DNA of 55,579 bases from a virus, in IMG/VR virus record IMGVR_UViG_3300043256_000267, positions 1 to 55,579 of that record; one strand, written 5' to 3'. Below are positions 13,284 to 39,100 of this stretch, piece by piece. The notes under the pieces were generated by a model. The model searched no databases and was not told where the DNA came from. It was given only the letters and a program-made list of their open reading frames with translations. The position numbers were made by a program, and so were the translations under genes. The number at the start of each line of letters is the position of its first letter. The stretch's first letter is position 1.

Positions 13284-13412
13284 ATCGAAAATCCCCTTTT
13301 ACAGTGAGAGTTAGAAAACCATCGCGCTGGAGTAGGAAATAGAGGTATAAGAGTATTCTGTTACGCTAAGACTGTCGTTCGCACGCGCATGTTTTTCCAG
13401 TGACACCGTACC

Positions 13413-13669: not shown

Positions 13670-14455
13670 TCACACGAGGCCCGGTGGGTCAGCCAGCGCA
13701 CCACAAAGGTACTCGCCTGGCTCGATTCCGTACAGGCGGTCCTCGGCGCCAGCTACGTACTTCTCGGACAGCTCGATGCCCAAATAGCGGCGGCGAAGCT
13801 TCTTGGCAACGGCTAGAGTGGTACCGCTGCCGACGAAGGGGTCGAGTACCAGGTCGCCTTCGTTGGAACAGGCCCGGATGATGCGGCCGAGGACCTGTTC
13901 GGGCATCTGGCAACCGTGAAAGCCAGCGCGTTCCTTGAAGGTGCCGCAGACCCGCGGGAACTGCCACGTATCATCAGGGATGCGGCCCTTGGGATTGGCC
14001 CGTTTGTCGTTGTACTTGAGCTGGCGGGCAGACGGCACGCGGATCGCATCAGCGTTGAACGTGAAGTTCTTGGGGTCCTTGACGAAGTAGAGCAAGTGCG
14101 TGTGGCTGCGCGTAAACTTGCGCTTGCAATTGACGCCGAACGTGTAATGCCAAATGACCCAGTTCCGACACGTAAGGCCTAACTTTTGGATCATCACTTT
14201 TAGCTCAGCCGCGTAGTCATCTCCGATGGCAACCCAAAGTGTACCATTTGGCTTAAGTGCATCAACGGCTCCGATGATCCACTCGCGCGACCAAGCAAGG
14301 TAGCTCTGGGGGGATCGCGCGTCATTGCATTCGTCGTACTCGTAGCCGATGTTGAATGGCGGGTCGGCAAAGACGAGGTCGACTGAGCCCGCGTTGAGCT
14401 TGGCGAGTTCTTGAATGCAATCGCCGTGGATGATCCGATCAAGATCGTCTGTCAT
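13670..14455 (-). CDS. DNA adenine/cytosine-N4 methyltransferase (beta-class order)
   Basis: This 261-residue enzyme transfers methyl groups from S-adenosylmethionine to DNA bases. Motif IV DPPFN is at residues 31-35 and motif [10 protein letters not shown] at about 205-213: catalytic motif first, cofactor motif last, as in the N4/N6 methylase family that includes CcrM-type enzymes. DPPF is seen in both N6-adenine and N4-cytosine enzymes, so the base is not decided. The ATG at 14455 has GGAGG seven bases upstream. No restriction partner is adjacent; it probably protects phage DNA or alters host regulation. Confidence 0.85.
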
Positions 14456-14863: not shown

Positions 14864-15496
14864 AAACGCGTTCGTGGCAGACGTCCACGCGGTTTGGGTA
14901 ACAGCGGGGCTGGAATTGCGACAGTGCGAGCTGGTAAAGTAGAACCGCGAGAATTGCGGGTCTCAGTGGAATGTGGGGACGCGAGACTGGGGCTCGTGTT
15001 CCGGGCGCGGGACAGGAGGACGACAAACTGCGGTTGCTGAGCGCGAAAGCGGCGGTGCCCCACATTTTTCGTAGACAACGTGGGGTGCCAATCGTCTCAT
15101 ATCGCCGTCGCTCTGGGGGTCCTTCGGGGTCCGCTAACCATGCACGCGACAGCGCACGCTGACCTGCGTTACCGGGCCGCGCAGTATCGGGCGTGCGATG
15201 CTGGCCCGCGCTCGTGCCCACTATCGGACGCTCGCTGCCCACGTGACGCTGACGGGCGCCCGTCTCGCGTGCCCGACCGCCTCGATCGCGCCGATCACGA
15301 GCCCCCCCGGTGGTGGGCAATAGTGCCCACCCACTACATGTTGTAGTGTGCAGCGCAGGACACTACATGTTGTACCACTAGATATGGTAGTGTCTTGACC
15401 GCAACCCACATCATCGGCCCCACCCTGCCATATTGGCACTGTCATAATGGCAGCCCGCCCCACCCGTCACGCAATCTGATTTTTCCTGTTTCCCGC
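14864..15496. other. Non-coding divergent control region
   Basis: I see no credible gene here; the one long leftward frame lacks a ribosome site and is Arg-rich noise. It contains many palindromes. GACGGGCGCCCGTC is at 15251-15264, and GTGGGCA-ATAG-TGCCCAC at 15313-15330. CACTACA-TGT-TGTAGTG is at 15332-15348, with a second CACTACATGTTGTA at 15361-15374 and a third related pair CACTA/TAGTG at 15376-15392. TGCCA-TAT-TGGCA is at 15426-15438, nested in a larger CTGCCAT/ATGGCAG pair (15425-15453). This is what an operator cluster or replication origin would look like. Confidence 0.6.
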
Positions 15497-15542
15497 TTGA
15501 CATTCCACGCTGGGCATCATACACTTACATCGACTCGCCGAA
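15497..15542 (+). promoter_or_regulatory. Early promoter-leader cassette 1
   Basis: TTGACA (15497-15502), 17 bases, TACACT (15520-15525), 10 bases, then CGCCGAA (15536-15542) just before the ribosome site and the ATG at 15558. First of six cassettes with the same plan. Confidence 0.85.
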
Positions 15543-15557
15543 CTGAAAGGGTGCGCA

Positions 15558-15767
15558 ATGACATTCAACGTAGGTGATCGGGTTGTCGCTTGGACATACT
15601 TCAATCGAGTGATCGGAGTCGTTGAAGCTTTCACCAACAACGGCCAAACCGCGATCATACGCGGTCGTGATTTGTTCGGCGAGATAGCAGTCCGCTACCC
15701 TGTCGCGCACTTGGAACGCGCGGCCGAGCCCCCAGCCCCACTTGTCCTATTTCCACCCACCGCTTGA
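15558..15767 (+). CDS. Small early protein, unknown function
   Basis: This 69-residue protein (MTFNVGDRVVAWTYFNRVIG...) starts with the beta-rich VGDRVVAW pattern common in small SH3-like barrel proteins; the C terminus is Pro-rich. It is the first rightward gene after the control region, driven by cassette 1. Its TGA stop lies in the -35 box of cassette 2. Confidence 0.65.
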   Translation: MTFNVGDRVVAWTYFNRVIGVVEAFTNNGQTAIIRGRDLFGEIAVRYPVAHLERAAEPPAPLVLFPPTA

Positions 15768-15809
15768 CATCCGCTTGCACGCATCATACACTTAGCATGA
15801 CTCGCCGAA
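15764..15809 (+). promoter_or_regulatory. Early promoter-leader cassette 2
   Basis: TTGACA (15764-15769), 17 bases, TACACT (15787-15792), 10 bases, CGCCGAA (15803-15809). The upstream gene's TGA stop is inside TTGACA. Confidence 0.85.
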
Positions 15810-15823
15810 TTGGAGCCAAGACA

Positions 15824-16069
15824 ATGATGTCCCCCGAAGGAACCAGTAAGTACGCGTGCAACATGCTAGGCGTCGCGCGCTGTGCTTACGACGGTTGGTG
15901 CATCGCGAAGGACAGCTACGAATCCGCAGCGCGTCAAGATGACCGTGAACTCTACACCGGTTACTGTCGAGCCTACTCGCAGATTCTTCGCGTGGTTACC
16001 GGCATACCGGCAACCGTAAAGTGCCAAGAGCGCTGGGCAGAATGGATAAAGACAGCCCCAACCACTTGA
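15824..16069 (+). CDS. Small early protein, unknown function
   Basis: This 81-residue protein starts at a tandem ATGATG with GGAG eight bases upstream, in the cassette 2 leader. It is helical, with four cysteines (YACNM, ARCAY, GWCIA, GYCRA) and a Trp-rich C terminus. No family recognised. Its stop is inside the -35 box of cassette 3. Confidence 0.6.
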   Translation: MMSPEGTSKYACNMLGVARCAYDGWCIAKDSYESAARQDDRELYTGYCRAYSQILRVVTGIPATVKCQERWAEWIKTAPTT

Positions 16070-16111
16070 CATCCGGCACGCGGTATCCTACACTTGCATT
16101 GAATCGCCGAA
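16066..16111 (+). promoter_or_regulatory. Early promoter-leader cassette 3
   Basis: TTGACA (16066-16071), 17 bases, TACACT (16089-16094), 10 bases, CGCCGAA (16105-16111), GGAGG, ATG 16127. The preceding stop TGA is inside TTGACA. Confidence 0.85.
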
Positions 16112-16126
16112 TCGGAGGCTTAACCG

Positions 16127-16294
16127 ATGTGGAAGTTGGTATTGTGGCTGACACAAAGCAAGTGCGTTACTGAAGAGTACGCGACCGAGGCCGAGGCCCT
16201 AGCGCGGCTTCACAAGCAGCTAGACACAGGCATGCGCGCTGTCGCGTGGGAACTAGACGGCCCGAACGGGAAGCACGAAGGACAAGAATTGTAA
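16127..16294 (+). CDS. Small early protein, unknown function
   Basis: This 55-residue protein (MWKLVLWLTQSKCVTEEYATE...) has a beta strand followed by an acidic helix (ATEAEALARLHKQLD). It is supported mainly by the dedicated cassette 3 promoter and GGAGG. Confidence 0.6.
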   Translation: MWKLVLWLTQSKCVTEEYATEAEALARLHKQLDTGMRAVAWELDGPNGKHEGQEL

Positions 16295-16303
16295 CCGCGC
16301 GCC

Positions 16304-16349
16304 TTGACATTCCGCACGTGGTATCCTACACCTAGCATGACTCGCCGAA
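16304..16349 (+). promoter_or_regulatory. Early promoter-leader cassette 4
   Basis: TTGACA (16304-16309), 17 bases, TACACC (16327-16332), 10 bases, CGCCGAA (16343-16349), then GGAGG and the ATG at 16365. Confidence 0.85.
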
Positions 16350-16364
16350 TGGAGGTACAAGCCA

Positions 16365-16556
16365 ATGACAGTAGGCACGCTACGACAAACACTTGAGGGA
16401 TTGTCTGAAGACACACGAGTTATTCTCCGCGTGATGACGGACATAGCGGTTGACGAGCCACGCGGCGCTATCCTGGAGGAAACATGGTTTGAGGTAGTCC
16501 CGCACACAGTTAACGGGCGCGGAGTTATCATCCTCGCAGCCGAAGGGTGCGCGTGA
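16365..16556 (+). CDS. Small early protein, unknown function
   Basis: This 63-residue protein (MTVGTLRQTLEGLSEDTRVIL...) starts with an amphipathic helix followed by strands, a pattern seen in small uncharacterised phage proteins. Cassette 4 drives it; the stop overlaps the next ATG (TGATG). Confidence 0.6.
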   Translation: MTVGTLRQTLEGLSEDTRVILRVMTDIAVDEPRGAILEETWFEVVPHTVNGRGVIILAAEGCA

Positions 16557-16834
16557 TGCCAAAGCCAACAACAGCACGAGTGAGCGTCAAGCGCTATCAG
16601 TGCGTTGAGTGTAAAGCAATTGAACAGCACAACACGAACCACTGGGGCGAGATTTATCCACGTTGTCGCTCGTGCGGTTGGAAAAACCCAATGGCAATGG
16701 CCCAGCGGTTCGTGTGCCTGGAGCCCTGTCCATCAACGCATGACACCCCAGAACCCTGGAAACTCGTAAAGCTTGGCGACATTGTGGAAATTGTCGAGCC
16801 CCACGTGCTTGACACGCGGTCCCGTGAATCGTAG
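16556..16834 (+). CDS. Small zinc-ribbon protein
   Basis: This 92-residue protein has CVEC and CRSC pairs about 25 residues apart near the N terminus (zinc ribbon), then a beta-rich part (LVKLGDIVEIVE). The ATG at 16556 overlaps the previous stop, so it shares the cassette 4 transcript; a GTG nine bases upstream is a weaker start. Its C-terminal codons contain the -35 and -10 boxes of cassette 5. Confidence 0.6.
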   Translation: MPKPTTARVSVKRYQCVECKAIEQHNTNHWGEIYPRCRSCGWKNPMAMAQRFVCLEPCPSTHDTPEPWKLVKLGDIVEIVEPHVLDTRSRES

Positions 16835-16854
16835 GCTTTAGGCGTATCGCCGAA
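16809..16854 (+). promoter_or_regulatory. Early promoter-leader cassette 5
   Basis: TTGACA (16809-16814), 17 bases, TAGGCT (16832-16837), 10 bases, CGCCGAA (16848-16854). The -10 box is weaker than in the other copies; spacing is preserved. Confidence 0.75.
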
Positions 16855-16869
16855 ACGGAAGGACGCACA

Positions 16870-17097
16870 ATGACACCGGTTCTCGTAAGCAACGCAGTAC
16901 AGATTGACTTGTCCCGTCCCGTTTCGGGCTCGTGGCATGGTCGCGGTTTCGGGCGCCACTTCGTTTGGCACTATTTGTGCTCACGTGGCCACACTGTCAA
17001 CGTCCGCTGCAACGCATGGCGCGGCATCGGCAAGCACCGCAAGCCAGACATCGTCCCGGGCGCGATCATGTGCCCGCAATGTGACCTTGACTCGTAA
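16870..17097 (+). CDS. Small Cys/His-rich early protein
   Basis: This 75-residue protein has CSRGH in the middle and CPQC near the end, which could form one zinc site. The ATG at 16870 is preferred over an alternative frame at 16904 because it follows the cassette 5 leader and GGAAGGA. Confidence 0.55.
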   Translation: MTPVLVSNAVQIDLSRPVSGSWHGRGFGRHFVWHYLCSRGHTVNVRCNAWRGIGKHRKPDIVPGAIMCPQCDLDS

Positions 17098-17132
17098 CGG
17101 CCTCACGGTCCCAACAAACGGGGGTTTGACCG

Positions 17133-17639
17133 ATGCAATACAGCATAATCTATAGTTGTGATGTGCCACGTGGCGTGTCTCTGTCCGCGCCACCACCGAC
17201 GCAATACCACAAATGGCAATGCACCGAACGGTCTGGCGGGCCAGACGGTGGTCAAATGGACTGGGGATTTGAGCCCGGTTCTTGTTGGTCGCGTGGACGG
17301 CACCGCAAGTATTGTGCGTATTTGGACACCGACGCCGAATTTGCCGAATTCGTTGACCATTGCGGATTGCACATAGAAGACGTCGAGACGGTGGGCAGCA
17401 TCGGCGCGCCCGGCTTTGGTTTTGGTTGGGCGCCTGCGCTATCGTTTGCATCACATGACCCTGAATGCTTGCAATCAGCCTACGTCACTCCGATACCCGA
17501 CGAACCACCACCCATACCGCTAGACAGTGCGCCCGCGCTGCCCGGCTGCGACGATTTGGTATTGTCCACCGCAGAGGCCGCGGCAAACCGCCGTTGGTCC
17601 GAAATTCGCGAGCAGTTGTTAGAAGACTACTCTTACTGA
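17133..17639 (+). CDS. Hypothetical early protein
   Basis: This 168-residue protein has scattered cysteines and aromatic residues (YHKWQC, PGSCWSRGRHRKYC), an acidic helix (DTDAEFAEFVDHC), a Pro-rich linker and a C-terminal helix (AAANRRWSEIREQLLEDY). No family recognised. It has no cassette promoter of its own and probably reads through from cassette 5. Confidence 0.6.
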   Translation: MQYSIIYSCDVPRGVSLSAPPPTQYHKWQCTERSGGPDGGQMDWGFEPGSCWSRGRHRKYCAYLDTDAEFAEFVDHCGLHIEDVETVGSIGAPGFGFGWAPALSFASHDPECLQSAYVTPIPDEPPPIPLDSAPALPGCDDLVLSTAEAAANRRWSEIREQLLEDYSY

Positions 17640-17675
17640 CGCGCACACGAGCGCACAACACAAGGGAAAGCTACC

Positions 17676-17912
17676 ATGGCAACGTCAAAAGAGGTCCGAG
17701 AACTCGCCAAAGCCGCAGGCGTGTATGTTGACACACGCTCACCCGGTGACGGCGTGACGCGCTACCTTTTCGCCAGCGTACCGGGTGGCTACTCTACATG
17801 GTCGCCGTTCGATACGCTCGCTGTTCACCTCGGTGCGCGCGCTGCGCTGCAATTCCTGCTCGGCGTGCAAGTGGGCCGGCACCTCGAACGTGAGCAGAAA
17901 AGCGAGACTTGA
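17676..17912 (+). CDS. Hypothetical early protein
   Basis: This 78-residue protein has an N-terminal amphipathic helix (KEVRELAKAAG) and a C-terminal hydrophobic helix (ALQFLLGVQVGRHLE). GGGAAAG precedes the ATG. A long perfect inverted repeat begins two bases after its stop. Confidence 0.55.
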   Translation: MATSKEVRELAKAAGVYVDTRSPGDGVTRYLFASVPGGYSTWSPFDTLAVHLGARAALQFLLGVQVGRHLEREQKSET

Positions 17913-17914
17913 CA

Positions 17915-17988
17915 AATTGTGTGTGCGAACGGTAGTCTTGGTACTACCCACTCTCTTATACCATAGACTACCGTTCGCACACACAATT
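17915..17988. terminator. 24-bp perfect inverted repeat, probable terminator or RNA structure
   Basis: The arms 17915-17938 and 17965-17988 are exact reverse complements, and TGGTA/TACCA extends the stem inside the loop. TTTTGT follows the right arm, so it could terminate rightward transcription. At 24 base pairs the stem is far longer than a terminator needs. TTGACA (17909-17914) abuts the left arm but no good -10 box follows. Confidence 0.7.
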
Positions 17989-18018
17989 TTGTAACTCTAA
18001 CTTTACGGGAGGATTTTC

Positions 18019-18420
18019 ATGGCTGCAATCTACCAAGCAGACGTATGGTGCGACGATTGTGCAAACGCAATCCGTAAACGGCTGCGATCGGAGGGCAACG
18101 CGCCTGAGTGTACCTACGACGAGCGTTCTTACGACTCGGACGAGTACCCTAAGATCGCGTCCGACGATGAAGAATCGGACACCCCACAGCATTGTGCCGC
18201 GCACGAGTCGTGCTTGAACGCAATCGAACTTTCCTCTGGCCGCAAAATCGGAATGTTGTTCGGTAGTCTAACATTTGACGGAGTGACCTACGTCCGAGAA
18301 ACTGCCCTTGGAAGTGGCGGCGAGGTCGCCGAGTTATGGGTCCGACACTTCTCGGACGGGGGCTACGACCTCGAACTAACCAAGTGTCCGCACTGTAAAG
18401 GATTTGTTGATGCCGCTTGA
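18019..18420 (+). CDS. Hypothetical Cys-rich early protein
   Basis: This 133-residue protein starts with WCDDC, has an acidic Asp/Glu/Ser stretch (residues 38-58), CAAHESC, and ends with CPHCKG. The paired cysteines imply at least one zinc site. GGGAGG precedes the ATG. Its TGA stop is inside the -35 box of cassette 6. Confidence 0.65.
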   Translation: MAAIYQADVWCDDCANAIRKRLRSEGNAPECTYDERSYDSDEYPKIASDDEESDTPQHCAAHESCLNAIELSSGRKIGMLFGSLTFDGVTYVRETALGSGGEVAELWVRHFSDGGYDLELTKCPHCKGFVDAA

Positions 18421-18457
18421 CTTTCCACGTGCGGCATTCTACACTTGGACAGCCGAA
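18417..18457 (+). promoter_or_regulatory. Early promoter-leader cassette 6
   Basis: TTGACT (18417-18422), 17 bases, TACACT (18440-18445), then AGCCGAA at 18451-18457, five bases closer than in cassettes 1-5. The upstream stop codon lies in the -35 box. Confidence 0.8.
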
Positions 18458-18471
18458 AAGGGGAACTGACA

Positions 18472-18597
18472 ATGATCGGGACTGTAATTGCCATTGGCGT
18501 AGGCGTCGTCGTGATTGCGTTCGCGTGCTGGTCAGTCTACTCGGATTTGCGCGGCGTTCCGTACTACCGGCCGCGTCACCGTCGTCACCGTTTTTAG
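18472..18597 (+). CDS. Small single-span membrane protein
   Basis: This 41-residue protein has a transmembrane helix (IGTVIAIGVGVVVIAFACW) and a strongly basic tail (RPRHRRHRF). GGGGA precedes the ATG in the cassette 6 leader. Confidence 0.6.
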   Translation: MIGTVIAIGVGVVVIAFACWSVYSDLRGVPYYRPRHRRHRF

Positions 18598-20286: not shown

Positions 20287-20877
20287 TTACTCGATTCGGA
20301 CGCACCGTACCCAAACGTCTACAAGAGCGCCATCGTTCGTCGCGCCTGCCGTGGCATCCGGGTCCACCACAAGGTCCGCATACAGACTGCCGTCTGCAAC
20401 CACCTCGTTGTTCGCCAGCACCACAGCCGCGGTCGGGAACCGCGCGCCGGACCCGTTCGCGTAGTCGTCGTCCAGCGCGAAGTCGGCCACTACGTCGCTC
20501 TCGGTCTCGCTCGCAGCGCCGTCTCCTCGGATTACGGTCATGTCCAGCGCGCCGCCGTCACCGTCCGTGAAGTCCGCTACGGTCAGGTCGACAACCTCAA
20601 ACCCCACTTCCAGAATGCGGAACTTAAATGGCGCGCTCTTCGCGGTGAAGAACGGCGTCCGGTAGGTGGTGGCCGCAGCCGGACTGTTCTCGTCGATGCC
20701 GCACCGCGCAATCAGCGTGAACTCCTGCCCGCGCGCGACATCCGCGACAGTTCCAACTGCGCGCAGCCCGCCAATTGTCCCCATTGTACTTTCGGGGTTT
20801 TGCGTGATGCACCCAATTACGATCTCGTGGTCATGCTCCACCTCAACGTGGGGCGCCCAATTTTCTCTTCGTGGCAT
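20287..20877 (-). CDS. Acidic hypothetical protein, possible virion decoration protein
   Basis: This 196-residue, beta-rich and acidic protein (VVADFALDDDYANGSGARF) has a repetitive valine/aspartate texture like small capsid-decoration or fibre proteins. The style is similar to the 117-residue protein at 54074-54427, though I cannot show homology. It follows the membrane gene 20881-21180 with no gap in an isolated leftward unit. Function unassigned. Confidence 0.5.
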   Translation of the reverse strand: MPRRENWAPHVEVEHDHEIVIGCITQNPESTMGTIGGLRAVGTVADVARGQEFTLIARCGIDENSPAAATTYRTPFFTAKSAPFKFRILEVGFEVVDLTVADFTDGDGGALDMTVIRGDGAASETESDVVADFALDDDYANGSGARFPTAAVVLANNEVVADGSLYADLVVDPDATAGATNDGALVDVWVRCVRIE

Positions 20878-20880
20878 CGT

Positions 20881-21180
20881 TCAATTTCCTTTCGTTTTGT
20901 TCTCGCCCGCTGGAGAGCCGCGTTCGCGCGATCGCTCGACCCCCAGCAGGACCCCTAGCCTTATCACTTCGCCTGTCAACGCGACGAGTTCGCCACGCAT
21001 TGCGTCAATCGACTTCTCTTGCCGCGCTTGCGCCGTCGCCAGCGTTTCTACCCGGTCCCGCACCATCCGTTCCACTTCCGCGCGCGTGACCAACGAGCGC
21101 GCCAGAGTGAACCACGTGCCTGCGCTCCCAATCGCGCCAGCCAAGATCGCGGGTATCAGTTGTGCCAGCGAAATTTCCAT
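20881..21180 (-). CDS. Holin-like membrane protein with coiled coil
   Basis: This 99-residue protein has a transmembrane helix at about residues 5-28 (LAQLIPAILAGAIGSAGTWF), then a long amphipathic helix with heptads (AEVERMVRDRVETLATAQARQEKSIDAM), and a charged tail. This architecture fits a class III-like holin or a membrane-anchored spanin-like protein. The ATG at 21180 has GGAG five bases upstream and a consensus promoter further up. No endolysin is adjacent, which weakens the lysis reading. Confidence 0.5.
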   Translation of the reverse strand: MEISLAQLIPAILAGAIGSAGTWFTLARSLVTRAEVERMVRDRVETLATAQARQEKSIDAMRGELVALTGEVIRLGVLLGVERSRERGSPAGENKTKGN

Positions 21181-21238
21181 TCTCGCTCCAGCCTGTGTGT
21201 CAAAAGTGGGCAGGGGCTCCAAGATCGCGTGCTGCACT

Positions 21239-21329: not shown

Positions 21330-21358
21330 TTGACACAGCCCGCCGGGGGTGCTATCGT
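21330..21358 (+). promoter_or_regulatory. Rightward promoter of the replication operon
   Basis: TTGACA (21330-21335), 17 bases, TATCGT (21353-21358). It lacks the CGCCGAA leader element of the early cassettes. The next ~14.7 kb of genes mostly overlap and show no other obvious promoter. Confidence 0.7.
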
Positions 21359-21401: not shown

Positions 21402-21632
21402 GTGAAGATTGAGAGCGCAAAAACGCAGGGTGAAGGACAGTCGTTGGATAGCTTTAACAATGGCGATTGTATCCGCCTTGTTGACAACGGCCTCAGCGAG
21501 TTGTTCTTAGACAGTGTATACATTGTGGGCACCTCCGGAGAAGGCCGACTGGCGATTAATCTTCTCGATGGGTGTCACCGACGTGAAGGTGGATTCGTGC
21601 TTGAACCAAATGCGAAAGTTGTAACTGGATGA
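21402..21632 (+). CDS. Hypothetical protein before DNA polymerase
   Basis: This 76-residue protein begins at a GTG at 21402 with GGAG seven bases upstream; a longer frame from 21306 would start upstream of the promoter. Mixed alpha/beta, no recognised motif. Its stop overlaps the polymerase ATG (ATGA). Confidence 0.6.
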   Translation: MKIESAKTQGEGQSLDSFNNGDCIRLVDNGLSELFLDSVYIVGTSGEGRLAINLLDGCHRREGGFVLEPNAKVVTG

Positions 21633-24355
21633 ACTTTGCTCCAGGTAGTCACGTTTTGGAAGAACCGCTTGCAGAGGGATACTCGCGCCGCGTGGTGCCT
21701 ACGTTTCCGCTGCACGTCAACGGACGGCAAACTGCCCTGCTGGTGCTTGGAGAGGCGCCCGGCCGGCAAGAAGACGAGACGGGCGAGCCGTTCGTTGGGT
21801 GGTCGGGCCAGTTGCTCCGCACTGCGTACATTGACTATTGGAAGCTACAAGATCACGCGGACGTGTTCCTGTCCAACGCAGTTCGGTCTCGCCCACCGGG
21901 CAACCGCACGCCCAAGCCAAAAGAGATCAAGGCGCACGCGGACATGCTTGTCCACGACGTGACCGAATTGCAGTCGGCGTACTCTGAGGTGTTCGTACTG
22001 TGTGCCGGAGCTGTTGCGTGCCAAGCGCTGGGCATGGCCAAAACGCTTACAGCAGCATTTAAGAGCCAAGGCGGCACTCTGCCATTCGCGGCGGGACACG
22101 TGCGCGCGTATGCCACGTTTCACCCTGCGTCTCTCGCAGACCGCGGCAAGAACAAACGGCGCCGTGGGCCTCGCCGCGCACGTACTGACAAGGGACCTGC
22201 ACTGGAGTCACACTTATCACTCTTGCAGCGTGCGCTGTCGGGCCAGGACCCAGTGCAGGAACCCGCTGCCGCTTGCGAATGGCTTACTGCTCCTGGCGTT
22301 ACAGAGATTACGGCATTTGGCACGCCAGACGCTTTGGCGTGTGACACTGAAACTTATGGATGCTTGGGGGGTGGGGAACAATCGCAATTCCAGCCGGACA
22401 AGTCTTTGCACTGGGACAATGTGAATCCCGATCAGGTCTTTGTTAGTGCTGCGCTGGCATGGGTTGGCCGTGGCACGGGTAGGAAGGGTGCTGGCTTTTA
22501 CAACTTGCAAGACCCTGAGCACCGGGCTACGTTTGTTTCGGTACTTCGATGGGTACAAAAACGCGACTGCCTGCTATTGTTCCACAATTGCGCCTTCGAT
22601 GTACCGTTTCTGCGCCGGTTCCTGCCAGCGTGCGCTCGCTACCTGGAGCCGCCGACCAAGCTGGCCGATTTAATGATCGAATCGCACATGGTAGATGACT
22701 TGCGCCCCGAGCGCTCGCTCAAAGCGCTGTCGCCTCTCATGCTCGGCCAGCGTGGACTGTACACTGAAGAGCAACGCACGTTTGACTACACCGGCCCGGA
22801 CGACCCGGATCTTGCACGCTACAACGTGGCCGATGTAGAGCGCACTTTGGAATGCTACTGCCTGTGCCGCGAGGCGTTCCCGCGCATCTACGGCGCGAAC
22901 ACAAACAAGGGTTCGCCATACGCCGACGATTGGTCTTCCAAGGTGCTGCACTTGGTCACGCACATGACCGAAGTTGGCATCCCTATCGACGAGCCCGGTT
23001 TGCGCGCCCTGGATACACGCTTGCGTGTTCGGTTGGAGCGCATCGAACGGCTGGCGCGGGACACTTTAGGTCTCGTGCTCTCGGGTAAAGTAGGCAAGGG
23101 CTCCGACACTTCCAAGCGTGCAGCGGTGTCGGATGCCGCAACGCTGTGCCCGGACAACGTCGCCGCGCAAATCATATTAACCCCAACTGGTAAGTTTCCC
23201 TACGACGAGGTTGCACGCGCGTTGCTCATGCCCGAAATGCAGGGTCGATGGGGTGGTGATGGCACAGTAGAAAACGGCGACCCCCCGCGCCGGGGAGCGT
23301 GGCGTAAGCTGCACGTGTTGGGGCTGCACCAAGGCGTTGCCAAGCTCATCAACACGTATACGGGGCCAATGCTCCGGGGCCGCGTCAAGAAGAAAGCGAC
23401 CAAGGAAACCAAGACAAAGCCAGCACGCGAAGCGGTTATCAATCACGCACCGCGCGTGATCCGCGGGCGCATCTACCCAACGTGGTATCCAGTGGCCCGC
23501 GAGTTTGGGGACACAGGTCAGAGCGGGGGTACCCGGCAGATACGGTTTGCCGCCAAGGACCCTGCCGTTCCGACGTTTCCGCCCTGCATTAAAGACCTGC
23601 TGCAAATTGACATCTGGGCCGACTACTCCGGCATCGAACTGAGGACTGCTGCGCTGATGTCCGGCGACCCGGTGATGATGGCCGAACTGTCGGGCGACGA
23701 TGGCGATCTGCACACTCGCACGGCACGCGTTATCCTTGGGAACAAGTTCGTAGATGACAGGATCAAGATGTACGGCCCGAAGGCGTGGAAAGGTGGCAAG
23801 CACCGCTACGCTGGTAAGCGCACCAATTTCCTCATGCTGTACTTGGGAGGTGCAGACAAGCTGCAAGCTACGCTCCTAGACGCGCTCGGGGAGAACTATC
23901 CAGTGTCTCGGTGTCAGCAGGTCATTACCGATTTTTGGGTTATGTACCCAGGACTGCGTGCTTTTCTTGATGGTGTGATTGACTTCGTCCGGCGCAAGGG
24001 CTATTATGAATTACCGCTGACGGGTCACTCGCGCTTGTTCGATCGGCACAACCCGCCGATCAACGAGTGTGCAAACTTTCCGTTCCAAGCGACTGCGGCA
24101 GCCATCACGATTTGTGCTCAGTACGAGCTGTGGCAACTAGCGCGGTCGGAAGGTGTAGGAATGAACTGTGGCTGTAACATCTATGATGCTGTCGGAATCG
24201 AGTTGCACGCCCGCGAGCGCCGGCTTCACGGAACACAGCGTGCCCGTGCTCTTATTGATCGCGCGCTCCCTCAGCCATCGTACTACAAGGACTTGTGTTC
24301 CCACTTGGGACGAACCTTGCCGCTGGCTTACGAAGTAAAGGAACCAAAGCAATGA
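21629..24355 (+). CDS. Fusion: uracil-DNA-glycosylase-like domain + family A DNA polymerase
   Basis: This is a 908-residue protein with three parts. Residues ~35-200 are a family-4-type uracil-DNA glycosylase-like domain: GEAPGRQEDETGEPFVG at 41-57, SNAVRSRPPGNRTP at 82-95, and HPAS at 165-168. Residues ~235-410 are a DEDDy 3'-5' exonuclease: DTE at 239-241, N320/D324, and YNVAD at 398-402. Residues ~430-900 are the polymerase: motif A DYSGIELR at 665-672, motif B KRTNF at 730-734, and motif C YDAV with D853. Notable points: the glycosylase part lacks the cysteines that hold the Fe-S cluster in cellular family-4 enzymes, and motif C has YDA where most polymerases have HDE. It is the replicative polymerase, with proofreading and possibly uracil sensing. 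Confidence 0.9.
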   Translation: MNFAPGSHVLEEPLAEGYSRRVVPTFPLHVNGRQTALLVLGEAPGRQEDETGEPFVGWSGQLLRTAYIDYWKLQDHADVFLSNAVRSRPPGNRTPKPKEIKAHADMLVHDVTELQSAYSEVFVLCAGAVACQALGMAKTLTAAFKSQGGTLPFAAGHVRAYATFHPASLADRGKNKRRRGPRRARTDKGPALESHLSLLQRALSGQDPVQEPAAACEWLTAPGVTEITAFGTPDALACDTETYGCLGGGEQSQFQPDKSLHWDNVNPDQVFVSAALAWVGRGTGRKGAGFYNLQDPEHRATFVSVLRWVQKRDCLLLFHNCAFDVPFLRRFLPACARYLEPPTKLADLMIESHMVDDLRPERSLKALSPLMLGQRGLYTEEQRTFDYTGPDDPDLARYNVADVERTLECYCLCREAFPRIYGANTNKGSPYADDWSSKVLHLVTHMTEVGIPIDEPGLRALDTRLRVRLERIERLARDTLGLVLSGKVGKGSDTSKRAAVSDAATLCPDNVAAQIILTPTGKFPYDEVARALLMPEMQGRWGGDGTVENGDPPRRGAWRKLHVLGLHQGVAKLINTYTGPMLRGRVKKKATKETKTKPAREAVINHAPRVIRGRIYPTWYPVAREFGDTGQSGGTRQIRFAAKDPAVPTFPPCIKDLLQIDIWADYSGIELRTAALMSGDPVMMAELSGDDGDLHTRTARVILGNKFVDDRIKMYGPKAWKGGKHRYAGKRTNFLMLYLGGADKLQATLLDALGENYPVSRCQQVITDFWVMYPGLRAFLDGVIDFVRRKGYYELPLTGHSRLFDRHNPPINECANFPFQATAAAITICAQYELWQLARSEGVGMNCGCNIYDAVGIELHARERRLHGTQRARALIDRALPQPSYYKDLCSHLGRTLPLAYEVKEPKQ

Positions 24356-32491: not shown

Positions 32492-32593
32492 CCGGCGGTG
32501 GCGTAAATGGCAACCGCATGGGATGGCATCTGGACACGAAAGTGGTCATTCCTGCCCTGAGAGGGTTTGCAGGTTCGAGTCCTGCCCGCCGAA
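32492..32593 (+). ncRNA. tRNA-like element with irregular anticodon domain
   Basis: CCGGCGG (32492-32498) pairs with CCGCCGA (32586-32592) at six of seven positions. GCG/CGC forms a D-arm around TAAATGGCAAC, and GCAGG-TTCGAGT-CCTGC is a canonical T-arm. CCCT-GAG-AGGG gives a class II-type variable arm. The anticodon domain is wrong: a GGGATG/CATTCC stem closes a 21-base loop containing its own CAC-GAAA-GTG hairpin, so no anticodon can be read. It may be a degenerate tRNA, a tRNA mimic, or a tRNA with an insertion. Confidence 0.5.
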
Positions 32594-36133: not shown

Positions 36134-39100
36134 TCAGGGGAAGATAGTCGGGACGCGGGTGCGCTGGCGACCAATTGCATACGGGTCAACTTCGGACATG
36201 GGGTCAAGGTCATTGGTGTAGGTGGGCAGTTCGGCCGCAACCGGCTTGTACAGGCCGCTGCGGACGGCGCGGCCGACTGGTCCCTGGAACGCGGCTGCTT
36301 CGTAGAACGGGCGCACATCGCGCGGCAAGGCAGATAGCTGCTTCTCGATGCGGGTCATCTTACGGCGCCGCTGCATCTGCCTTAACTGGTCCGTTGTGAG
36401 CGCGATGGGGTGGCCGAACCGGCGCACGTGCTCGGCTTCGATATTGGATGCTTTGGTGGCGTCGTTGGCAAAGAGCGCGTCCAAGTACAAGCGGCGGGTT
36501 TCCTTGATCGCGTTTGAGTCCAGCCTCAACCGGTTTGCCAGTTCAGCTTCCTGGTCAATTGCACCGCCCTTGATCCCCAACGAATGCCGGACAAGTTCCC
36601 AGGGCTTGTAGTACCCGACCAAGCTACCCTTTCCAGTGTACACAGGAATGCGACCAGTATGCGGGTCTCGTCCTGCATAGTCGGCGTGCTTGCGGTTGAG
36701 CCACCGGGCTGCCGGCTTGCCCACACCCTCGTTGATTCCTGGCACCAACCCCAGAGCACGCGCGGCCGCTACACCGCCGGGCACCAGCAACGGCATCTGT
36801 CGCGTGAACTGGTCCCAATCGCCAGACCCCGCTGCCGACAAGAACCCCCCCACGATGGTGGCGGCTGGAGGTACAATCGGGAGCGGGGCCAAGATGCTCC
36901 CGCGGTCATCGACGTTTGTAAAAGACGGCAGCGCACCCCCAATCAATGCGTCCTTCATGTTCACGCCAAGCGTCTGGCCCACCTCCATCGTGGCCCACGA
37001 GTACATGACCTGGCGGGAGATTTGCGAAAAGTCCCGCTCTTGGATCGCGCGCCGGAAACCCTCCAGCGTGAACTCGGTGAACTTTATGGGGAACATGGCC
37101 AGTTGCCGAACGACTGGCTGCCCAAACGTCCCAGCAGGAAGGAACGCCATCGGAGTATCAGTCAATCCTGGCACGAACTGGGTCCGCACAGCCACTTGGT
37201 GCGCGTGCTTGATCGCTTCTGCCCCACGCATTCCACCTGCCTTAGCGTGTGTTAGGCCCGCGTAGAACCCAGACATACGCACGTTGGTTTCTGACAGCTT
37301 GAACAGTGACATCGCCGCGCGCTTGGCCTTTTCCACTGTACTCACACCAATAGGCGCCGTCTTTTGCAGCCGGTAGGCAGATTCCATTGCGCGTCCAAGC
37401 ACTTCGTCCGTGAGCGGACTGCCGTGCAACCCCGACTCTACGAACTCAGGGAACACCCGCTTGAGTGCATCTGCATGGCCGATCTTTTGCGCCAGCCGCG
37501 CCTCGAAGTACCGCGGCATCCGCTTCAATACTTCCAATTGGCCCGCAAGTGCGTTCTTGCCCCCAACCAGCGGCGCCGTAGTAAGCACCTGCTGGAACGT
37601 GTTTTTGAACGCAGCAGACGGGTTGAGTCCCAACGTGCTCAAGTAGAAGTAGCTCGCGACCGAGTGGGAAAACCCACGTAGGCTGAAAGCACCCATGCTG
37701 CTACTGTACATGTCCCGCATGTGGTTGGCAAAGTCGTCGCCCACCGCCACCCGAACGCGTGGTGATTCCATCAAGCCGATGATCTGTCCCCACCGTTGAT
37801 CCCACAACTGTGCATTGAGTGCCTGGCGCGGTGTTGGCCTGCCCAGCGCGGACGGGATAACAGTGTTCTCCAGCATACGCGCGCGCCAGCCAGCTTTCGC
37901 GTCCACCTTGCCGAGCAGTTTTGCGCGCTGCAACTCGCCGAGTATCTTTGGCCCGTTCCCGCGGATCGACCACGCATACGTGTTTCCGATCGAGTGGTAG
38001 TAGTTCTGGAGGACCGGCTCCAGGCGCAGTGAATACTGCTTAGGCATGTGCTCCGCGATGCCGGTTACGAACAAGTCCCGCTCGCCGTCAGCCACTAGGT
38101 TTTTGCCCTGCGCAGTGATCTCGTCTAGCGTTTTGCGGCGAAACGTCCTAAGTGTGCGGTCGGACATACCTGCTTTCCCAAATCCCTTGAGCAGTTTGTC
38201 CTTCACGCCGTTTTGCAATCGGGTCAGGGCTGCGGGGTCTACCAAGTCTCCAAGCAACCCAAGTTCCTGGAGCGCCGGCATCATAGCGCCCTCGCGGCGG
38301 TAGAACTCACGCCCCAAAAACGTGACGGTTTGCAGTTGCGCCTTACGGGAAAACTCTTGTCCGTTTGCGGTCGCCGTAATCGCATCATGTACCCGTTTGG
38401 CGTCGGCCTGCGTGCGAATCGTCCGGTGCGGCATGTAATCCGGGACACCTTTCCACTTGCCCTGCTTGAGCCACGTCTGCATGGCCTTCATGTCAGACAC
38501 ATCGTAGCCCAAACCCTCTAGCCGCTTAGCCGTGTTCCGTAAGCCAGTGATGAACTCTGGCCGGTTGAACACATGATCGCGTGTATGGTCTAATGCCGCC
38601 CGCACGTCTGCGCTCAGTTGGCGCAGGGCCGGGGTCATAGCCTCTTCTAGCCGTGGCACCAGCGGCCCAACATCCTTCCACCCATGCGGTGCTTTCAGAT
38701 GCAGCTTTTCACCGTGTAGAAACGCCATCACCTGCTCACGTGCATTGGGAGTTTTCCCGGTCGCGCGCGCGTACTTCTCAAATGCTGGCCCGAGCATCCC
38801 GTCTACGTACTTGGTGTGAATCTCGTTCTTGGCGAAAACAATGTCGTCCAAAAGGTCCGGCACCGGTGTCCCACGGAACGCCGACCGGGCGCCGGCCAAG
38901 CTGCGCAACACCGGGACACGTGCCAACATGCCGTCAATTTGGCTCTTGACCTTGAACAGTGCTTTGGCTGACGGGATCGGAGAAACGAAGGTGAGCGCGA
39001 TAGACGCCATCACCGCAGGGTTAGTCAGGGTCTCCATAATGCGGCCCTGGAGAGAGTCGCGGCGGATTCCCCACTTGCGGAGAAGCTGGTCCCGTTCCCC

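Follow-up and report, generated by a model that had tools for sequence, protein, structure and literature searches.

Repeated promoter-leader cassettes with a conserved CGCCGAA element ahead of small, putatively early phage genes

The virus record IMGVR_UViG_3300043256_000267 of IMG/VR, from a phage known only through environmental DNA and analysed here over its complete length of 55,579 bases (hereafter the window), contains six promoter-leader cassettes, placed ahead of six very small genes unrelated to one another and each carrying the heptamer CGCCGAA, or AGCCGAA in one case, just upstream of the ribosome site. The cassettes share one anatomy and are selectively conserved, CGCCGAA is strictly linked to the promoter, and the genes that follow have been exchanged between two sister phages. 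We give about an even chance to the reading that they are early promoter modules in which conservation reaches to about +11 and the function is promoter-linked. The seven-letter tag is new, and the layout resembles repeated switches of mycobacterial phages.

Results

The six cassettes are found at positions 15497, 15764, 16066, 16304, 16809 and 18417 (Table 1), and all follow the order TTGAC(A/T), spacer, TACACT-like -10 hexamer, (C/A)GCCGAA, ribosome site and ATG. The spacer measures exactly 17 bases in six of six, and the -10 reads TACACT in four, TACACC at 16304 and TAGGCT at 16809. Ten bases separate the -10 from CGCCGAA in five cassettes, and five bases precede AGCCGAA in the one at 18417; a preliminary description of this DNA had reported the same places, spacer and distances, and all of them were confirmed. 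From the end of the element to the start codon there are 14-15 bases in every cassette, the short cassette 6 included. In four cases the gene upstream terminates within the cassette that follows, three times by a TGA within TTGAC(A/T) and once by a TAG within the -10. The claim that almost each tiny gene has its own cassette holds for five of the first six genes, but for only six of the ten genes from 15558 to 18597; the gene at 16556-16834 overlaps the end of the cassette 4 gene and has no cassette of its own.

A single relative was detected, the IMG/VR record 3300038678_000209 (here G001; 53,649 bases, with a 127-bp end repeat), which is collinear with the window once circularly permuted. 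Most aligned segments are about 73-93% identical, and the genome identity of the two sister phages is roughly 83%. Searches of IMG/VR for distant relatives with the terminase, the polymerase and the DHH protein returned only G001; no terminase relatives were found in GTDB genomes or among isolate phages, and isolate phages showed no meaningful DNA similarity to the cassette region. The family is known from these two genomes, and the statements on conservation below rest on paralogues and one sister phage. Between 15135 and 18400 the alignment is limited to short pieces, and this part would therefore be a variable early region. From the layout, the genes driven by the cassettes are probably early genes.

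A weight matrix was built on the -36 to -6 part of seven cassettes, and it matched exactly the six cassettes in the window and two sites in G001 (21349 and 23003), with scores of 25-45 bits for the members and about 13 bits for the next best site. TTGAC-N18-TANNNT occurs 12 times in the window versus 0.7 expected from shuffles, the combination TTGACA...TANNNT...GCCGAA four times versus none across 100 shuffles, and the exact combination including CGCCGAA had zero occurrences among 60 simulated genomes. By itself CGCCGAA is unremarkable (22 matches versus 14.7 expected), and the signal above chance is the combination of promoter and element, not CGCCGAA alone.

To describe conservation, cassettes 1-5 and the copy at 21349 in G001 were aligned. 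In these six copies identity is complete (100%) for the -35 and for CGCCGAA and 83% for the -10; it is 56% for the ten bases between the -10 and CGCCGAA, 53% for the spacer and 44% for the ribosome-site region (14 bases before ATG), and only 30% in the upstream flank and 23% in the first 60 gene bases. Pairwise identity outside the fixed blocks is 35-69%, so that the earlier wording "near-identical" was overstated. The fixed stretch exceeds CGCCGAA: TCGCCGAA is invariant, as is a G three bases ahead of it. Besides the -35, the -10 and CGCCGAA, the invariant positions are the C preceding TTGACA, G.ATC preceding the -10, the T following the -10, the G seven bases past the -10 and the T preceding CGCCGAA. 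Seven invariant columns in a row have a probability of about 1e-4 by chance at the background rate of 7/27, and shared descent alone is therefore a poor account of them. These data support a constraint of its own on the CGCCGAA element, which is invariant while its neighbours diverge.

The hexamers and the 17-base spacing appear to fit a host sigma70/SigA promoter. At sigma70 promoters, as used by the housekeeping RNA polymerase, the start is expected about seven bases after the -10; here the seventh base is an invariant G with a pyrimidine before it. Transcription probably starts at this G (predicted +1), and with the G at the expected point messages would therefore begin GAMUCGCCGAA and have a leader of 25-26 nt. 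CGCCGAA would thereby be contained in the initial ~11 nt of the message, close to the 5' end as had been anticipated. In cassette 6 the element is five bases closer to the -10 and still 14 nt from the ATG, and its mRNA would start at or slightly ahead of GCCGAA.

CGCCGAA leaders were found in the two phages solely with this promoter class. Among their 148 called starts, GCCGAA lies 14-15 nt upstream in the seven cassettes and in one weak gene call, 33030, which has TGCCGAA as its 7-mer and no promoter. Early genes with a ribosome site but no promoter (16556, 17133, 17676, 18019 and 18631) lack the element. Four further promoters that are conserved between the two phages (21330+, 21324-, 14830- and 12223-) also lack it, so the host polymerase does not generally require it. 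The leaders have no shared fold (z-scores of -1.05 to +1.16) and no gain in accessibility versus 118 other starts (p = 0.76); no antisense pairing partner for the element was found, and Rfam gave nothing credible at the cassettes.

Neither a convincing family match nor a convincing homologue in G001 was obtained for the cargo genes of cassettes 1-5 (69, 81, 55, 63 and 75 aa). The single full cassette of G001 drives an unrelated 135-aa gene and keeps CGCCGAA exactly. At the place of cassette 6, G001 keeps CTTGACTTTCCGCGTGCGGCATTCTAC, diverges within the -10, and continues with another leader and a 65-aa gene, then the 41-aa gene. Promoters kept by relatives in the absence of CGCCGAA had been named beforehand as evidence against a function of the element, and the two promoters of this class in G001 give a divided answer: one keeps CGCCGAA, while the other keeps the -35 and spacer and has lost the leader, a loss that coincides with a different gene spliced in. 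The picture is one of compact promoter-leader units with exchangeable genes, any direction or route of exchange being a matter of inference.

A search for the combined pattern had been suggested as well, and it recovered the one full cassette in G001 and no further carrier: the promoter plus CGCCGAA pattern matched 53 stretches of IMG/VR, the others being without cassette layout. The -10 plus 11-mer pattern matched five IMG/VR stretches, one of them real, and the promoter core matched only G001. Among the matches listed for the leader plus ribosome-site pattern in IMG/VR, 80 loci were examined and no such promoter was seen, many of them being coding-like. A scan of GTDB genomes gave 10 stretches and no cassette, and those from Acidobacteriota read as one conserved coding sequence.

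Table 1. Positions of the cassettes, of their start-region elements and of a dispersed 19-bp element in the window
Feature	Position	Strand	Description
Cassette 1	15496..15557	+	TTGACA-N17-TACACT-N10-CGCCGAA-15 nt-ATG; gene 15558-15767, 69 aa
Cassette 2	15763..15823	+	TTGACA-N17-TACACT-N10-CGCCGAA-14 nt-ATG; gene 15824-16069, 81 aa; TGA of gene 1 within TTGACA
Cassette 3	16065..16126	+	TTGACA-N17-TACACT-N10-CGCCGAA-15 nt-ATG; gene 16127-16294, 55 aa; TGA of gene 2 within TTGACA
Cassette 4	16303..16364	+	TTGACA-N17-TACACC-N10-CGCCGAA-15 nt-ATG; gene 16365-16556, 63 aa
Cassette 5	16808..16869	+	TTGACA-N17-TAGGCT-N10-CGCCGAA-15 nt-ATG; gene 16870-17097, 75 aa; TAG of upstream gene part of -10
Cassette 6 (short)	18416..18471	+	TTGACT-N17-TACACT-N5-AGCCGAA-14 nt-ATG; gene 18472-18597, 41 aa; TGA of upstream gene within TTGACT
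Start-region element, cassette 1	15532..15542	+	GACTCGCCGAA; first G 7 bases past -10 = predicted +1
Start-region element, cassette 2	15799..15809	+	GACTCGCCGAA
Start-region element, cassette 3	16101..16111	+	GAATCGCCGAA
Start-region element, cassette 4	16339..16349	+	GACTCGCCGAA
Start-region element, cassette 5	16844..16854	+	GTATCGCCGAA
Variant element, cassette 6	18451..18457	+	AGCCGAA
19-bp element	2900, 6222, 19068, 32643, 44655	+	CCATTGGTGGGGACCGGTT
19-bp element	21240, 33188, 47844	-	CCATTGGTGGGGACCGGTT

Discussion

We propose that the six units are diverged homologous early-expression cassettes, which would serve as plug-in units for interchangeable orphan genes. Each would combine a host sigma70/SigA-type promoter with conserved information past the start to about +11 (GAMTCGCCGAA, G = +1), and the non-conserved ribosome site would come after this block. 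The +1 to +11 block may be recognised at the transcription start by a factor that switches the early set as one or, alternatively, may be an initial-transcribed sequence that tunes promoter escape. Early promoters of T5 and T7 have a functional downstream region, with information in the first transcribed bases that affects promoter escape; this likeness would concern the mode of action only. With a standard, transferable unit of expression in place, a new orphan gene would be usable immediately, and phages carry many tiny host-acting early genes with fast turnover. If the start-region block is a control site, it would offer a new handle on the joint switching of an early gene set.

The closest comparison is with cluster K mycobacteriophages, in which seven 46-47-bp SigA-like promoter units (extended start-associated sequences, ESAS) and a 13-bp start element (start-associated sequence, SAS) of undetermined function were described (Pope et al. 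2011, PMC3203893; PMC11373665). The likeness to start-associated sequences drawn in the preliminary description is apt, as the extended form in the cluster K phage Adephagia also contains a SigA-like promoter (PMC11373665). Both systems have a repeated SigA-like promoter (17-18 bp spacing), a conserved element near the start codon and many small genes without annotated function in the non-structural part of the genome. The SigA-like spacing was found in six of six cassettes, a similarity of kind and not of descent. SAS is defined by a 13-bp consensus upstream of starts (GGGATAGGAGCCC, with at most 2 mismatches); it takes in the ribosome site, is placed 3-9 bp ahead of the start and has promoter-independent copies too, and ESAS contains a 15-17 bp inverted repeat. 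CGCCGAA, unlike SAS, precedes a ribosome site that varies, keeps 14-15 nt to the start codon and occurs only with the promoter. The window has 11 matches to the SAS consensus at up to 3 mismatches versus 13 expected, with none at the cassettes, and an inverted repeat of at least 7 bp was absent from six of seven cassettes, cassette 6 having one 7-bp pair. The cassettes thus seem comparable in layout to ESAS/SAS and not members of the same family. SAS sites of Adephagia are present with and without the promoter unit. The occurrence of CGCCGAA with promoters only, unlike SAS in Adephagia, favours a promoter-linked role over a ribosome enhancer; a promoter-linked start-region element therefore appears more likely than a general ribosome enhancer, which we do not propose. 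The role of SAS/ESAS has not been established since 2011, and an independent similar design helps to separate promoter-linked from ribosome-linked explanations.

Another comparison is offered by the early-promoter stem-loop elements (PeSLs) of T4-type phages (Arbiol 2010; Comeau 2014), which, as summarised in PMC4503421, join a promoter to a terminator stem-loop. As in that summary, repeated early-promoter units stand between small genes and the gene content is shuffled among relatives; here the same cassette is followed by unrelated cargo in two sister phages (two genomes). Unlike PeSLs as outlined there, terminator-like sites are absent from the cassettes (4 found in the search versus 3.7 expected), and the cassettes carry a conserved start-region block where PeSLs have the stem-loop.

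Several points weigh against a promoter-linked role. The proteins scanned included no recognisable DNA-binding regulator, and the CGCCGAA element is not palindromic. Cassette 6 has 5 bases fewer between the -10 and the element, whereas the distance to the ATG is still 14, which would also suit an RNA- or ribosome-linked role, and in the sole known relative the second cassette is without the element. The two minus-strand genes at 20287-21237 were considered as regulators and rejected, as by eye one seems to encode a structural-type protein and the other a membrane/coiled-coil protein instead.

A less probable but serious alternative is recognition of the first ~11 nt at the RNA level. They would be read by a factor or nuclease of phage or host origin, comparable to T4 RegA/RegB, or else by the ribosome, and translation, stabilisation or shut-off would then affect the early set as a whole. 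The element stands at the 5' end of each predicted mRNA, 14-15 nt from the start codon also in cassette 6, and is more invariant at base level than the ribosome site. T4 sets a precedent, as its RegA/RegB control an early mRNA set post-transcriptionally at start regions (PMC3014915), a likeness that would hold if the RNA-level alternative holds. However, the element is absent from the promoter-less genes of the phage, unlike SAS in cluster K, and neither fold, accessibility effect nor pairing partner was found. RegA sites are A+U-rich and overlap or abut the AUG, and RegB cuts GGAG (PMC3014915); CGCCGAA resembles neither, and no RegA/RegB homologue was recognised among the proteins scanned. 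Our estimate is lower still, rather on the doubtful side, for a specific form in which GAMUCGCCGAA marks the 5' termini of the earliest mRNAs as a sequence-specific barcode and a trans-acting phage or host factor reads it in RNA form; if true, any orphan gene behind a cassette would join the same post-transcriptional programme. The RNA- or ribosome-level function first suggested for CGCCGAA is thus possible and not favoured, given its promoter-only occurrence and the lack of a shared fold or accessibility gain. A DNA-level role at the transcription start would fit equally well or better, although both kinds of action are compatible with the sequence and cannot be separated from it alone.

Descent only, with the cassettes as recent duplicates and CGCCGAA as the part that has not diverged so far, seems improbable to us. 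The cassettes are clearly homologous, near one another and in tandem on one strand, but eight consecutive columns are invariant beside a spacer and a ribosome site of only about 50% identity after divergence, and a sister phage at the genome identity given above retains the same 11-mer; this reading is disfavoured. A methylation-sensitive promoter, in which a CcrM-type GANTC (GACTC/GAATC) at +1 to +5 would time the early promoters and CGCCGAA would be context, is very improbable: GANTC lies exactly at the predicted start in five of seven leaders with the element (15532, 15799, 16101, 16339 and one in G001) and the phage encodes a beta-class N6_N4 methylase (13670-14455, minus strand) with CcrM among its PDB matches, but CcrM is not its best match and its specificity for GANTC is only putative, cassettes 5 (GTATC) and 6 are without GANTC, and the site is about as frequent in the genome as chance predicts (194 observed, 199 expected).

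Additional observations

Operator-like palindromes upstream of cassette 1 (15332-15453; L050 6698-6790) are wholly different in the two phages, with CACTACATGTTGTAGTG repeats in the window and TTAGGCTAGCCTAA in G001, the latter resembling a DtxR/IdeR iron box. Between two early genes there is a long hairpin (17899-18004) with 40-nt arms that are 85% paired, whose stem is partly broken in G001; a related sequence, GTGCGAACG..AGTCTT..CTCTTATACC, is found at 13366 on the minus strand.

The asymmetric 19-bp element CCATTGGTGGGGACCGGTT occurs eight times with at most one mismatch, on either strand and at genic as well as intergenic positions (Table 1), and G001 has eight copies too, largely at matching places. 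In IMG/VR its 16-bp core is repeated only in G001, with single flank-less matches in three other contigs. It looks like a dispersed protein-binding site, possibly stoperator-, origin- or packaging-like.

A tRNA-like element at 32492-32593 (plus strand) matches Rfam RF00005 with 30.0 bits (cut-off 29), has a long insert and is absent from the ARAGORN calls; CCGCCGAA is also read at its 3' end, and the end of a similar element is found at 37394 in G001. Finally, the DNA polymerase A (21629-24355, plus strand) has an N-terminal uracil-DNA glycosylase domain fused to it and is 87% identical in G001.

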